Assembly: GCA_002897115.2 (NCBI GenBank)
Contig: BCIH01000002.1
Span: forward strand, 2,139,762-2,203,761
Reading direction: 5' to 3'
Source: Prototheca cutis
Lineage: Eukaryota > Chlorophyta > Trebouxiophyceae > Chlorellales > Chlorellaceae
Length of the DNA: 64,000 nucleotides
The notes under the pieces are model-generated. The model did no database searches. It saw only the letters and a program-made list of their open reading frames with translations, and was not told where the DNA came from. The translations under genes were made by a program, and so were the position numbers. Below are positions 57,677 through 64,000 of the stretch, piece by piece. Numbering within the stretch: the first letter of the stretch is position 1; every line of letters starts with the position of its first letter.

Positions 57677-58537
57677 CGAGGCAGGTGTGATTATGGTCCA
57701 AGGGGTCGGATGACGGCAGAGCTGAAAATATTTTCCGGTCCCCCTGCGTGCCCCCCCCCCCCCAAAACACACCCACACCCACACGAGCACAAAAAAGAAA
57801 GCAAAAACTGCCCTGCAGATGGCATGCGCTCGGTGACGTTTAATGTGAAGGACTTTCGGGCAGTGCTGGTGCTGTGTGAGCAACTGGGCCGGCCGCTGAC
57901 GCTGCGGCTGGAGGGTCCCGGGCTGCCCCTGCTGGTGGAGCCCGCTTTCGGTGAAGGCGAGCAGCTCCTGGAGGCACAGCTGGTTTTGGCCACACTGGTG
58001 GAAGCAGCCGTGCCTGAGCCCTTGCCCCCCATGGGCCAGCCGGTCGGCCCCGAAGCGGGGCGCTTTTATGCAGGCGAGGCCGCACGTGCAGTGCCGGCGC
58101 CGGCGAGCGGCGTTCATCCGGCGGAGCGGCCGAGCAGGGCAGAATGGGACGATGCAGGCCTCGGGGGTGCAAACCTGGCCGGGTACGAGTGGGTGTTGAG
58201 CCTGTGGTGTGCCTCATTTGGCGTGTGGACTGATGAGCGAGGCAAAATGTGGGCAGGGGCAGGAGGCACATCAGGGCACACTGCCTGGATCCACTGGATC
58301 ACTGCCTGGTGACACCCTTCCTTGCACTGCTGCAAAGAAAATGGGAAGGTGCGATGTGCCTCAGCCGCTCAGCAGCGTGCCTTGAGCCGTCCGTGCAGGC
58401 GGGATCCCGACAGAGATGTTGCGCTGGCTGGCCGGGAGGGAGAGGAGGAGCAGGAAGTAGGCGGCAGCCAGCCCCTGGATGCTGAGGAAGGGGCCCTGCC
58501 GGGCATGATGACCACCATGCCAGGGGAGATGTGGTGA
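56046..58537 (+). CDS. RAD9: RAD9, 9-1-1 checkpoint clamp subunit
   Basis: Eight exons (56046-56162, 56303-56425, 56575-56674, 56819-56930, 57140-57255, 57430-57510, 57819-58182, 58399-58537) give 383 residues; all phases agree. It opens MAGILRLSLVDQQLKHFKLG and shows the PCNA-like fold: LRCINATQSAYLSLTFHARY and FFETYN-like, LRTQRMSRLNLDL, SFLNYQ, VKDFRAVLVLCEQLGRPLTL and the hallmark GLPLLVEPAF at the end of the second half. A short acidic tail (REGEEEQEVGGS) replaces the long phosphorylated tail of animal RAD9. RAD9 with HUS1 and RAD1 forms the sliding clamp that activates ATR at damaged DNA. Intron 6 contains a 74-base near-pure G-run. Confidence 0.9.
57602..57675 (+). repeat. Near-pure G74 tract in RAD9 intron 6
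   Basis: Seventy-four bases of G on the sense strand with a single T at about 57632, preceded by a GT-rich stretch. Length likely imprecise. Confidence 0.9.
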
Positions 58538-58794
58538 AGGGCGCAGCGGTCCTGAGGCAGCATGCTGCAGGGTGTTCGATGCCTTGGTGACGTGGGCCTT
58601 GTCCGACAAGCGACATTTTACTGGTAATATTACCCAAAGGCATCATTTACAAACAATGTACTCGTGAGATTCTTGCTGAAAAGGCGTGTCCGGAATGGTT
58701 AGGAACAGTGGCCATGGCTCCCAGCCGGCCGGCCAGCAACAAAACGATACAGCTGGCAATGCGGAGCCCCGCGCTGGAAAACAAAGCGTTCAGC

Positions 58795-59138
58795 GGGGTG
58801 GGGTACGATTCCAGACAAACTGGGGCGCACCCCACAAGAGATCCGCGAGGGTTACCCAGAAACAAACTGGCCTCACAGCACGCGTTCAATGGTACTGTTC
58901 CGCGGTGCAGGGCCTGCAGCAATCTTGGTGATCATATCATATCAGGTGGAGCGCCTGGGAGGGGGACATGCAAGGGGGGCGAGCTCGGTTTTGCGATCAA
59001 AAGGCGGCGGTCCTTTGCCGGTCAGGACCAGTCTCTCCCCCAGGTGGCGAATGTTCCATGCCATGTTGACGTCGCGGTTCCACACCACGCCACAACTGTG
59101 GCATTTGATGATGGCGTACTTGTTCCGGGCGGTGCTGC
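58795..59138 (-). pseudogene. Truncated Fanzor relic with conserved right end
   Basis: About 344 bases aligning closely with 62102-62446. On the minus strand it encodes NKYAIIKCHSCGVVWNRDVN followed by MAWNIRHLGERLV, then a stop at 58942. That is the second zinc-finger Cys pair and the RuvC-III Asp of a TnpB/Fanzor nuclease, with the upstream first Cys pair, RuvC-I and RuvC-II absent. Downstream of the coding end, about 90 bases of non-coding sequence including the hairpin at 58798-58835 are also conserved. Sequence beyond both ends is unrelated to the larger copy. It is a 3'-end-only derivative, either a dead fragment or a non-autonomous element that kept its guide-RNA end. Confidence 0.8.
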
Positions 59139-59746
59139 TGTTTGGGTTGCGCGCAGTGCTACTGGATGGGGGCCACCGTCGACTGCGGGGCATCACGTCC
59201 ACCGGCCTCGCCCCGGCCTGGAGCACCTGCTGCGCTTGATGCCGGCGTACCACCTGGGTGGGTGTCTTCTCTTCCCACCCGCGCCGCATCTCGAAGGTGT
59301 GTCTCTTGCACGAGCTTGCCAACCTCAACACCCCTGCGGTGTGCACGTCCCAGGGCAGCCGCCGGTGCAGCCCTCCCTTCGAGGTCGTGCTCACGTGGCA
59401 GCAGTGCATTGTGCGGGGGCAGTCCGGTTCCGACCGGAGATCTGACCCCGGTCCTGCAACAGCCGGCGCATCGACCAGTCCGATGCAGTGGCTGCACTAT
59501 CCATTCCCGTGGTCCGGCTTCAATGCAGGGGGATTAGAAGGTGTTTTGACTGCGGACATCAACCGGCACCAGCCACTACAGCTCCTCAGCCAGACGATGA
59601 ATCCTAGTACATGGAGGACTGGCCCGATCTGAGCCAGCCGGCGGACTGCAACCGGGACAGCCGCCGGCAGCGCCGGGTCAATCCCCGCTACGCTGAGCAG
59701 GATTCACCATGAGATATCCATGCTACCAGATCCCAGCAGGCTGCAG
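59139..59746. other. Unassigned, between Fanzor relic and unknown ORF
   Basis: About 0.6 kb of open frames without recognisable domains. It may be older element sequence. Confidence 0.35.
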
Positions 59747-60171
59747 TGGACAGCCAGCTGGCCTTGCTGAGCCCGAGCGGGGAACCCCAATGTGGGGACG
59801 GTGCTGGACCTTCAACCCCTGCCCCTCGGCACCCCCTGAAAGACCTTGTCATCAGCGGCATGGTGCAGCATTTTATGCTAAAGCACTCAGGCACACCGAA
59901 GGATGACCTTCTTCGATTCACTCGAGGAGCGCTAAGCACCCGCTCCCTGGAACCCGTCGACAAGCAGGCGGCAGAGCTAGAAGAAGAAGGGCTCTGGGCT
60001 GAGATACCTCTCAACTCAGGCTCTGGATCCAAGAAGCGGAAGATCGGGTGGCGGGAACGCAGCTGCCAGAAGTACAAGCGGAGGACCACATCGAGATTAA
60101 ATGCAGCTGCAGAGGCCCAGAAAACGGTGGACATGACATTGCCTGTTGCTGAACTTGAATCTGATCTCTAG
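59747..60171 (+). CDS. Unknown protein fragment with bipartite basic motif
   Basis: An open stretch that follows an acceptor-like CTGCAG at 59741-59746, with no ATG at its start. It encodes about 141 residues: LKDLVISGMVQHFMLKHSGT, then KDDLLRFTRGALS, an acidic AELEEEGLWAE, a bipartite nuclear-localisation-like cluster (SKKRKIGWRERSCQKYKRR) and a short tail ending LESDL. The upstream exon was not identified. It could be a small nuclear gene or part of the element debris around the Fanzor relic. Confidence 0.35.
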
Positions 60172-60813
60172 ATAGATTGACCTGCCTTTGTCTGCACAGT
60201 GCTCCCCTTGATTCGACAAAACAATGGGCAATTGAATCATGATATGGAGGTATAAGACGAGATTTTCTTTTGGAATCAATCCAAACAGCACCGGAAGGCG
60301 CCCCAAACAATGTGTGACCTAAGGCCTTGCCGACCTCAAGGAGCTTGTTTAAAGCCCAGGGCCGCCGAACGAAAAGCCGACATAATCGCGGAGACCCAAC
60401 TCCCATTTGCACCCTCAATCCTTTCATTATCTTGATTTCTGGGGGTTGACAGGCGTTGCAGGGGGCCTACACGCGCGGCTTGGTGGCCTCGTCCTCCATA
60501 GCTGCGCAGCCCCCGAACGTCGAAGGGCGATTGCCCACGAGCGCGCTCCTTTCTGGCCCCACCCTGTTCTCAGACTGGATTTTTGGTGCGGAATAAATAT
60601 TTCCGCGGGGTCGTACGAGGGGGTGCTGCGCGGGTGGTGCACCGGAGGGCCTGGAAGGGATTTGGGGAATCGTTCTATTCCCGCGTTCGACCGTTCGACC
60701 GTCCATCGGAGCAGTTCCATGCAAAGCCCTGCACGCACACTTCCGAGTGTGCTTTATTTTAAGAGTGTTGTAATGTATTTTGGCCAGGATTTTGCACAGT
60801 GACAGTGTGAGAG
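60172..60813. other. Intergenic
   Basis: About 0.64 kb; presumed promoter of the NTF2-fold gene. No gene seen. Confidence 0.35.
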
Positions 60814-61869
60814 ATGTGGATTTTTGAGTGCTGCAGGCCACGCCGGGAGGCAACCCCGCCGCCCGAGCAACCCACCACCACGGCCACTGACAAGGCACCG
60901 GAGCCCAGCACCCCGCCACAGTCTCTGGAACTGATCCGGGCACACAGTCGAGCTGGTTCCAGGATTCTGCAGTCTGCGGACTCTGGGAATGCACGGCTGC
61001 GATCGGGACCGTCTCAGTCGCTGCTGGAGGCCTCGGCCCGGCGACTAGCTTCCGTCGTGGAGGCTGACGTGCCCGATGCAGTGCAGCTGGATGCGGAAGA
61101 TCACGGCATGCCTCGCAAGTTTATCACCGCATACTTTGACGCCATTGTTGCCGAAAATGCCAAGTGGGTTGGATGGGCTTGGTGGGCAGGGGCGGTGTGG
61201 GAGTGGCCTCCTGCCTGGGGGTGTCTGGAGGATCGAACCCTGGTGCTCTCCGGGAGGGCTGCCCGCCTGCAGTGCCCAGCCCAGCCAGGGAGACAACAGA
61301 ATCCCATACACCTCAATACTTGCGTCTGCATTTCATTTCACCAACCCCTGCACCCTTCCAACCCAACTTGCAGGTGGGCCATTGGCAATCCTGAGATCGA
61401 GGATTTGTTCGCGGAGGATGCAAAGATGCTCACGCAAGACAAGCAGGACTTGAGAGGCCGTGCGGCCATCATGCGGCAACTAGAGAAAGGTGCGTGTTTT
61501 TTGGGGGGAGTGCAATGGAGTGCCGGGGTGCACGTGCCAGAGGCCCCGTTTTGGTGAACTCTTGCCCGTCTTCCACCCAGGGATGGTGCACATCACCAGC
61601 AGCACGGTGGAATGCATGCATTAAGTTGATAACCCCCCCCCCCCCCCCCCCCCCCCCCCACACAATAAACAGGTGTGGGCATGCTTATCAAGCTTGGCGG
61701 CAAGTCTGCAGAGCCACCAGAGGTGACGTTGGAGGGCCCTGAGCGGACGCCGGAGAACGTGCACGTGATGAAGTGCAGCATCAAGCGGGGCGTGCGAACC
61801 ACGGTGTTCACCATGGAATTCCACATCGTTGATGGCAAGATTCGGTACCTGAAAAATAGCCGCTCATAG
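60814..61869 (+). CDS. NTF2/SnoaL-fold protein, unknown role
   Basis: Three exons (60814-61163, 61374-61489, 61673-61869) give 220 residues. The first 90 residues are low-complexity. Then comes a compact alpha+beta domain: FITAYFDAIVAENAKWAIGN, EDLFAEDAKMLTQDKQDLRG, RAAIMRQLEKG, VHVMKCSIKRGVRTTVFTME, FHIVDGKIRYLKNSR. The pattern (helix, short strand, -GRaaI-, long bent sheet ending VDGKIRxxxxxR) is that of NTF2-like SnoaL proteins, which are cone-shaped dimers used as enzymes or scaffolds. A short candidate exon at about 61580-61620 was left out because it ends in a stop and its inclusion breaks phase. The start ATG (MWIFECC) is plausible but not certain. Confidence 0.68.
61633..61659 (+). 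repeat. C27 homopolymer in last intron of NTF2-fold gene
   Basis: Twenty-seven consecutive C ending about 13 bases before the acceptor, so it forms the pyrimidine tract of the 3' splice site. Confidence 0.9.
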
Positions 61870-62101
61870 TTCCACCAGGCGGGAGCGCTTGCCAATGCTG
61901 CATTGCATTTCATTTCATTCGATACCTGAGTACTGTACGGTGTTGCAATAGCTTGAAAATTCTTACAGCATTCTAGTCAATTTGCAGCAAATGGGTTGTC
62001 AGCTGGGGAGGCTGCTGAGCGTCAGCGAGAATGGCTGAGTCACGGCCCAGGGTGGGCGATCCTGCCCCTTCCGATGCGTTGGGGAAAGTTCCGTGCGACT
62101 C

Positions 62102-62191
62102 GGGTGGGGTACGATCCCAGAGAACCTGGGGGCGCACCCCACGAGAGATCCGCGAGGGTAATCCAGAAAAAACTGGCCTCACAGCACGCGT
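62102..62191 (-). ncRNA. Candidate guide-RNA scaffold / right end of Fanzor element
   Basis: Ninety non-coding bases immediately 3' of the Fanzor stop codon that are conserved at 58795-58885 beside the truncated copy. They contain a nested stem: GTGGGGT (62104-62110) pairs with ACCCCAC (62136-62142), and inside it CCCAG (62116-62120) pairs with CTGGG (62126-62130). Both stems are kept in the second copy (58798-58804/58829-58835 and 58811-58814/58820-58823). In TnpB and Fanzor systems the omega RNA comes from the 3' end of the gene and the adjoining element end. RNA function here is inferred from position, conservation and structure only. Confidence 0.55.
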
Positions 62192-64000
62192 TCAATGGTG
62201 CTGTTCCGCAGGCCAGAGCCAGCGGAGTGTCTTGGTGATGAAATCATACAAGGTGGAGCGCCTGGGAGGGGGACATGCAGGGGGGGCGAGCTTGGTTTTG
62301 CGGTCAAAAGGCGGCGGTCTTTTGCCGGTCAGGACCAGTCTCTCGCCCAGGTGGCGGATGTTCCGCGCGGCGTTGACGTCGCGGTTCCACACCACGCCAC
62401 AACGGTCGCATTTGAGGATGGCGTACTTGTTCCGGGCGGTGCTGCATCCACCCAGGCGTGCATGCGCCTCGCACGCCGAACAGATCTGCGGTGTTGCGCG
62501 TCTGGGATCGGCGGTGTGGCCGGCAGCCCGTGGACATTGTGCACGTGTGCGTACGTGCACCTGCCCTGCTCCAACCCCCTCTGCACCTGGTCGCCCAGCT
62601 CACGGCGCGCGCCCATCCAACCCGGCCCCCACCCATGCGCAACCACCCCAGCGCGCGCCTGCGACGTGCGGAACTCGTCGACCTCTATCACCAACAGTCC
62701 GTGCGCCTCCCGCATGCGCTTGGCCCAGCGGCGCCACCCCAGGCTCGGAGGATGACCGGGCGAGTTGTGCCTGAAGCTGGCATTGCCCATGAACACGACA
62801 ATCCTGCTGGGCTGGTGCCCTGTGCAGGCAATGACGTCCTTGATGGATTCGTCCATGGCCATGTACCTCATCATGTACACATCAAACGCGGCCTTCCTCC
62901 ATTTGTAGCTGCAGGTGACGTCGAGCAGGGCGTCGAAACGCGTGCACTCGCCGTCAAACGGTTGGAACATGTAGTCGATGTGGTCGCGCACGTCCTGCGC
63001 GTGGCCAGTCGCCAACCACGGCACGTTCCCCACGACGTCCCACAGGTCCTTGTTCTCCCGCAGAAGCCTCAGGTGGGTGTCGCGGTTCTTGTTAAAGTGC
63101 GCATTGTGGCGGAACTCCTTCGTAGTCATGCACACGGTGTCGCCCTTCTGCTCGCCGTAGTTGCAGGTGAGGATGACCTTGCGGCCGGGGTCGATGCCCA
63201 GCGAGCAGCCGCCACTGCCCAGCACCTTCTTCGCATGCTCCGTCTGCCTTCCGCTTGGCTTTCCTCGCGGCCGCCTGGGCTTTCTTTGCGGCCTGCTTGG
63301 CATCCCACGAGGCCTGCTTGGCCTCCTTCACGGCGGCCCGCCTCTGGGCCTTCTTGGCGACGTGCCAGGGAACGCGGCCGCCTTGCTCCCCGTCGCTGCC
63401 GCTCCCTTCGTGCTCCAAGGCCAAGCTCAGTGCCACGCCGTCGGTCGTAGCATNCCCCACAANCCTCTTGCGCCTGCGGCCCCCGCCGCATCGGTCCGAC
63501 GCGAACCACGTGCTGGGAAAGTCGAACAGTCTCTGCCAGCTTTCCGGCCCCCTCGCCCGGAAGGCCTCTCCCGTGCCGACCTCGACACCCGCTTGCTGGC
63601 AGAGAAGCCACAGGGACCTCGCGTCCAGGATGATGTGCCGCGCCGACGAGCGGCACACGGGCAGCACGGTGAACGTCCGCTTCCACCGCCTCGTCCGCCA
63701 CATGAACTTGGAGACCTCGCACAGGAGGCGCAGCTTGTCCGCCTCGGTACTGATCCACATGAGCGCCAAGACAATCGGGCGGATGATCGCGCACCAGTCG
63801 GCCTTGGGCAGCTGCACNGGCCGGCCTGCGTCNNCGCAANGCTTGAAGATCGCCAGCAGCTCGTATGCCAGGCGCACCACGCCATCCGGATCGTGGGTCG
63901 ACAGCATGTCGAGCCCGGGCGGCATGGCCCGTTCCACCTTGCCCGCCGGCCAGTGCAGGCGGCCGTTCCCCTGCCACTCCCCGATCCTCCTCCGGCCAGA
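62192..64000 (-). CDS. Fanzor (eukaryotic TnpB-like RNA-guided nuclease), 5' end cut, one frameshift
   Basis: Minus strand, open to the right edge of the window. Last exon 62192-62485; the preceding coding block starts at 62660; the 174-base intron has a GC donor (CAG|GCGCGC). RuvC motifs: I, SLGIDPGRKVILTCNYG (Asp at 63190-63192); II, LLVIEVDEFRTSQ (Glu at 62684-62686 or 62675-62677); then across the intron the zinc knuckle ICSACEAH ... LKCDRCG; III, NRDVNAARNI (Asp at 62378-62380). The N-terminal 250 residues include a Lys/Ala-rich helix (AKKAQRRAAVKEAKQASWDA), likely nucleic-acid binding. The frame changes once between about 63240 and 63260, and several n lie upstream, so the break could be assembly error or decay. 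Length and intron suggest a eukaryotic Fanzor rather than bacterial contamination. Confidence 0.85.

Follow-up and report, generated by a model that had tools for sequence, protein, structure and literature searches.

The window (the whole 64,000-nucleotide stretch of DNA that was analyzed) very probably ends in one copy, now degraded, of a mobile element of the nucleus; the element carries a Fanzor gene, has a structured right end, and inserts at GNT|CG. The feature located there is the 3′ end of a whole element of about 6 kb with a structured right end, not an open reading frame alone, and, judging from its sequence, this element of Prototheca cutis is nuclear and mobile, with the Fanzor gene at its 3′ end. 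The host is P. cutis JCM 15793, a nonphotosynthetic (colorless) green alga; the earlier note on this DNA had rightly placed the gene in a green alga, and the present analysis adds that the alga is a colorless Prototheca. The same note had described the Fanzor as either domesticated in the algal nucleus or mobile within it. Mobility is borne out by at least dozens of copies, by recognizable element ends, and by target site duplications (TSDs) in the relatives. Domestication of the window copy is unsupported because this copy belongs to a mobile family with at least dozens of members and its frame is broken; it is a decayed member of that family. The frame break lies near 63240, between a lysine-rich linker and RuvC-I, and severs the N-terminal part from RuvC-I, although an assembly error may be an alternative cause. 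The catalytic residues, said earlier to have survived, are indeed present despite this break. It had also been proposed to extend the contig toward the 5′ end of the gene: a run of N begins right after base 64000 and swallows the 5′ part of the window copy. At the other end, the element extends some 90 nt beyond the stop codon and has its boundary at 62103. The parts of this copy, and those of a second copy in the window, are as follows.

62659 to 64000, minus strand: part of Fanzor exon 2 with RuvC-I and RuvC-II; the 5′ part is in the assembly gap after 64000
63178 to 63195, minus strand: RuvC-I motif IDPGRK, with the catalytic Asp and the DPG signature
62662 to 62682, minus strand: VDEFRTS, with the alternative RuvC-II Glu
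62486 to 62658, minus strand: phase-0 GC-AG intron, defined by copy comparison
62192 to 62485, minus strand: Fanzor exon 3, with the C4 zinc finger, the RuvC-III Asp, and the stop codon
62471 to 62482, minus strand: CSAC, first Cys pair of the zinc finger
62399 to 62410, minus strand: CDRC, second Cys pair of the zinc finger (placed by eye)
62369 to 62386, minus strand: NRDVNA, with the RuvC-III Asp (placed by eye)
62192 to 62194, minus strand: Fanzor stop codon
62103 to 62235, minus strand: structured right end, a predicted omegaRNA-like scaffold that overlaps the stop codon and runs to the element boundary (from folding)
62081 to 62102, minus strand: host flank starting with CG, a putative guide
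58797 to 60682, minus strand: second element copy, internally deleted (left end at 60682, right end at 58797)
59713 to 60168, plus strand: open frame on the opposite strand, in the left part of the element

Identification of the nuclease

The reading of the protein as a Fanzor-type nuclease, for which a search with Fanzor/TnpB profiles had been suggested, is upheld by two kinds of comparison. The Pfam domain Cas12f1-like_TNB was detected in the open frame covering the last exon of the window copy (E = 2.2e-9) and in a spliced relative (E = 1.4e-14). A family profile compared with the PDB retrieved the Fanzor1 of Parasitella (rank 1, 3.2e-10), mimivirus L79, a Fanzor2 (rank 2, 2.3e-8), and the Fanzor1 of Spizellomyces (rank 3, 4e-8), with alignments that run through the RuvC and zinc finger motifs. 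Because the profile finds these three proteins, the P. cutis nuclease is assigned by sequence to the Fanzors, probably to the Fanzor1 kind; a best match to an unrelated RuvC or RNase H family, named earlier as the contrary outcome, is contradicted by the same ranking. With a single sequence as the query, L79 came first (0.0014) and the Parasitella Fanzor1 scored 0.033.

The order and spacing of the motifs (RuvC-I, Glu, zinc finger, RuvC-III) also hold as described in the earlier note. On the spliced relative L040 the arrangement is D-X174-TS-XX-C4-X5-RD, which lies within the Fanzor/TnpB motif as published, D-X(125,275)-[TS][TS]XX-C4-X(5,50)-RD. The profile alignment consists of four families from P. 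cutis and two distant proteins (P0001 and P0002); the catalytic Asp, Glu, and Asp and the four Cys residues are invariant in all six proteins, as are D291, P292, G293, and E463. A Glu is present in VDEFRTS, as had been stated, but it needs a correction: from the alignment, DEFRTS appears to hold the RuvC-II Glu at the alternative position of Fanzors. A published figure legend gives both the DPG and the alternative-Glu signatures for Fanzors.

Outside the P. cutis genome, only two Fanzor-like relatives, 25 to 27% identical, were found with the spliced query among the best 8000 candidates scored, and protein searches with an exon fragment or with the frame that reads through the intron retrieved no relatives. 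The PDB matches of the intron-reading frame were discarded, as they involved solely low-complexity glycine stretches. A single-protein scan of viral contigs yielded no relative; a profile scan of the same contigs gave 30 loci, matching only residues 421 to 543 of the query, at its zinc finger end. Together these scans speak neither for nor against viral transfer.

Gene structure

The gene was reconstructed by copy-to-copy comparison on its best-read copy, copy B, where three exons of 355, 468, and 97 codons are separated by phase-0 introns and encode a protein of 920 aa. The first exon, of 355 aa, contains glycine-rich repeats and has an NLS-like start; the protein begins with MVTRKRKRPREE, which looks like a nuclear localization signal. 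Exon 2 (468 codons) has no stop in any of the 4 copies that were cut correctly (one more row was mis-cut), and its dN/dS ranges from 0.39 to 0.75 across 15 pairs, which take in the window copy and also the mis-cut row.

The intron that the earlier note had drawn at 62486 to 62659 is genuine, with a corrected span of 62486 to 62658 on the minus strand and the GC-AG type. Across 18 copies the intron before exon 3 always starts with GC and in 16 ends with AG, and it varies from 170 to 279 nt; in 6 of the 18 its length is not a multiple of three, so that reading through it would break the frame. Three distant paralog families, whose aligned parts are 35 to 44% identical to those of copy B, carry a GT-start intron at the same codon boundary. 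That 18 copies and three paralog families have introns at one position agrees with the nuclear residence proposed earlier.

Several individual loci deserve mention. In L043, a G-rich simple repeat has expanded intron 2 to 279 nt. L018, L026, L028, L027, L032, L033, and L037 represent further Fanzor families of the same genome, or pieces of such families, that have diverged far more strongly, and the first three of these have GT, not GC, at the start of the shared intron. L044 (C5:1141500-1147000) carries 616 bases of the Fanzor gene as a tandem repeat, with 97.6% identity and about 100 bases between the repeats, possibly an assembly artifact.

Element copies and deletion derivatives

Two copies (C8 and C6, each joined from two adjacent pieces) share homology over about 6 kb that stops on both sides. 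The genome searched for element copies and domains comprises 19.9 Mb in 23 scaffolds and contains 97 matches to the TNB domain, 90 of which reach the end of the profile. These matches include all Fanzor families of the genome, and their number is a lower bound; this element is present in at least dozens of copies. Searches with the element ends gave 40 matches out of 40 for the right end (among the best 40 of 92 first-look candidates) and likewise 40 out of 40 for the left end (among the best 40 of 113).

Two subfamilies with internal deletions have been amplified, and both ends are kept in each. In one, the left end to about 317 is joined to 5121 (8 distinct loci); in the other, the left end to 1541 is fused with 5627, at 8 distinct loci and, with junctions close by, at another two. 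The second copy in the window (58797 to 60682, minus strand; about 1.89 kb) is a member of the latter subfamily, whose size is about 1.87 kb, and has lost nearly the whole Fanzor gene while keeping both ends. The opposite-strand frame in the left part of the element is represented by 152 matched pieces genome-wide, several per locus in places. Three versions of it gave no Pfam match at a useful level, and its copies contain indels and a splice-like GTAAG; it could be either a small partner protein or a noncoding remnant. Between the two element copies of the window, a putative small host gene with introns was read by eye at 60814 to 61869 on the plus strand, with SnoaL-like similarity below the cutoff (E = 0.017 for one exon and 0.04 for the joined exons).

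The right end as a candidate guide RNA

Over roughly its final 134 nt, from about 40 nt upstream of the stop codon onward, the element is predicted to form four hairpins, and the terminal one ends at the element boundary. The fold has z scores of −1.9 to −5.6 in all eight copies folded, compared with −1.5 to +1.6 for nine control stretches taken from the window, of which six also lie in copies of the element (P = 4e-5 for right ends versus controls); the two weakest right ends (−1.91 and −1.95) are barely past the best control (−1.54). Covariation gave no support, with two-sided changes in none of the 38 predicted pairs in 18 copies, and an Rfam search of positions 58000 to 64000 of the window returned nothing but one irrelevant subthreshold match. 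The folding results point to an omegaRNA-like guide scaffold as the predicted function of the right end.

Insertion sites and the predicted TAM

Left and right flanks were paired for 16 copies, and an exact stretch of at least 8 bases was counted as a match. Such a stretch is shared by the two flanks of 7 of the 16 copies but only by 11 of 240 mismatched pairings (P = 2e-5). The match of C7, AATGGCAC, was rejected as a TSD, as it is inside the left end of the element and not at the junction. Six clean TSDs of 8 to 11 bp are listed here.

CGCACCTCAG
CGTAGGAA
CGGATCCCTCG
CGTCGCAC
CGAACAATCG
CGTTCGAAAC

All six start with CG and have G-N-T before the left copy. Five have the right copy directly after a recognizable right end; the sixth, L029, has a diverged right end, which was placed by eye on a longer stretch of flank. 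Between the TSD and the left-end core lie anywhere from 4 to 29 nt, so that the right ends are fixed and the left ends ragged. In 9 of the 16 paired copies a TSD could not be recognized, for which age or rearrangement may be responsible. The same preference is seen in larger sets: the first base after the C-run, as read by eye, is G in 16 of 18 right ends (P = 1e-4), and GNTCG was found upstream of 17 of 30 left ends, or 14 of 30 after removal of three hits inside the element. When the five copies that had defined the motif were also removed, 10 of 25 remained, compared with 101 of 1140 background windows (P = 3e-5).

In the Fanzors that have been studied, published accounts place the guide 3′ of the scaffold and the TAM 5′ of the target. 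Because the clean insertions show TSDs after G-N-T|CG and a fixed right end, the predicted guide is host DNA starting with CG just past the right end, and the predicted TAM is GNT or GNTCG. For TnpB of IS607, a fixed nucleotide on the right flank has been described as belonging to the RNA scaffold, and the recurrent CG of the Prototheca element may play the same part.

By analogy with Fanzor and TnpB biology, the structured right-end RNA would act as the guide scaffold and the host flank starting with CG as the guide. Given insertion at G-N-T|CG with duplications of 8 to 11 bp, the match of the guide would lie beside a TAM at the empty site. Once the element has been lost, the nuclease would recognize this match beside GNT or GNTCG and cleave the empty site, and the element would be regained when the break is repaired from an occupied copy.

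Possible modes of mobilization

How the element is moved is a separate matter. No Pfam match to a familiar transposase was found in the spliced Fanzor or in three versions of the left frame, and the reverse transcriptase domain has a single match in the genome. An element of the IS607 type with a Fanzor2 was considered and dropped, as it needs insertion without a TSD (serine recombinase elements, as published, make none) and the six clean insertions carry them. A DDE cut-and-paste transposon with short imperfect inverted repeats, TSDs of 8 to 10 bp, and the Fanzor as cargo, supplied in trans with a transposase that is missing from the assembly or not in Pfam, can be proposed tentatively. An inverted repeat of about GYACGATYCCC, seen by eye near both ends, and the retention of both ends by two amplified deletion subfamilies speak for it, and there is a published precedent in Chloropicon primus, whose Fanzor2 rides a cut-and-paste transposon with terminal inverted repeats (TIRs) and TSDs. 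However, the TSDs vary in length and the left ends are ragged, the MULE domain has no match in the assembled genome, gaps aside, although three control genomes were positive, and the hAT dimerization domain is likewise unmatched, with the control genomes silent too. Rather doubtful is a nonautonomous Helitron2-like element carrying a Fanzor1, on the pattern of CRe-1, CRe-2, and CRe-3 of Chlamydomonas. The published CRe elements vary in their TSDs and at the 5′ end, have a fixed motif upstream, and show internal deletions, a pattern that resembles the TSDs of 8 to 11 bp after T|CG, the strong right-end hairpin, and the ragged left junctions seen here. Yet there is no TTTT target, left ends are about as frequent as right ends (113 versus 92 first-look candidates), unlike the 3′ excess of CRe, and in the window copy, the only copy tested, the hairpin at the left end is no more stable than shuffled sequence. 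Further, Helitron_like_N (PF14214) has no match in the genome, where the control genomes were also silent, and PIF1 has just one. The combination of an abundant Fanzor family, a compact genome, and no recognized transposase of its own could also mean, though this seems unlikely, that the ends and TSDs reflect an undescribed insertion mode, perhaps involving the Fanzor or the opposite-strand product.

Two further readings were weighed. A domesticated host Fanzor gene, with which the retained catalytic residues would agree, is highly improbable, being contradicted by the copy number and the element ends, as well as by the TSDs of the relatives and the frame break. Contamination with a bacterial TnpB would account for the common Pfam domain and is still less credible, given introns at one position in 18 copies and three paralog families, copies on many scaffolds, and the Fanzor signatures. 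The favored reading of the window feature is the one stated at the outset, a decayed Fanzor element that was mobile in the nucleus.

Host genome

For P. cutis JCM 15793, PMC11302234 (Table 1) lists 46 scaffolds and 20.03 Mb, so some small scaffolds are absent from the 23 searched here; it also names a second sequenced strain, 20-25310. PMC12633428 (Table 1) gives a repeat content of 5.84% for P. cutis. No light-harvesting protein exon was found, as expected for a colorless alga. The genus Prototheca takes in human-associated opportunists (PMC7941945); none of the results on the Fanzor element bears on virulence.

Relationship to known Fanzor elements

In the literature library searched, no description of a Prototheca Fanzor element turned up, and PMC12633428 (the same work as PMC12636532) was the only one found to name both Fanzor and Prototheca. 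It reports that the commonest repeat of Auxenochlorella UTEX 250-A, which belongs to a sister genus, is an uncharacterized Fanzor-encoding element. Compared by description alone, that element is like the one in Prototheca in encoding a Fanzor, in being abundant, and in residing in a related alga, and a shared origin of the two is plausible; the passages that describe it do not give its ends, TSD, RNA, or transposase.

The Fanzor1 proteins of Spizellomyces punctatus and Parasitella parasitica (PDB 8gkh and 9cf0) share with the Prototheca protein the RuvC D-E-D residues, with the Glu just before TS-x-x-C, as well as the zinc finger and the RP-x-F tail. However, the similarity is only distant, and the Prototheca protein is 920 aa long with a first exon of 355 aa. 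The TAM of SpuFz1 is reported as CATA (PMC10432273), whereas the one predicted for Prototheca is GNT or GNTCG. CRe-1, CRe-2, and CRe-3 of Chlamydomonas reinhardtii, as described in PMC3627910, have in common with the Prototheca element a multiexon Fanzor gene (Fanzor1 in CRe, probably so in Prototheca), variable TSDs after a fixed motif, and deletion derivatives; they differ in their TTTT target, as opposed to T|CG, and the Prototheca element has no Helitron protein match and no underrepresentation of left ends. The C. primus transposon (PMC10711439) is, likewise, a green algal Fanzor carrier outside the IS607 type with TSDs and degenerate TIRs, but it carries a Fanzor2, whereas the Prototheca profile ranks a Fanzor1 first. 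The nuclease itself is a new addition to a known family, and the superfamily and mechanism of its carrier are the more interesting part.

Bao and Jurka tabulate genomes with 1 to 10 Fanzors each. The 20-Mb Prototheca genome holds at least dozens of independent insertions, each predicted to have its own natural guide, together with deletion derivatives that retain the ends and lose most of the nuclease; the role of Fanzors for transposons can therefore be tested by strain comparison. The predicted TAM, GNT or GNTCG, can be checked in vitro.
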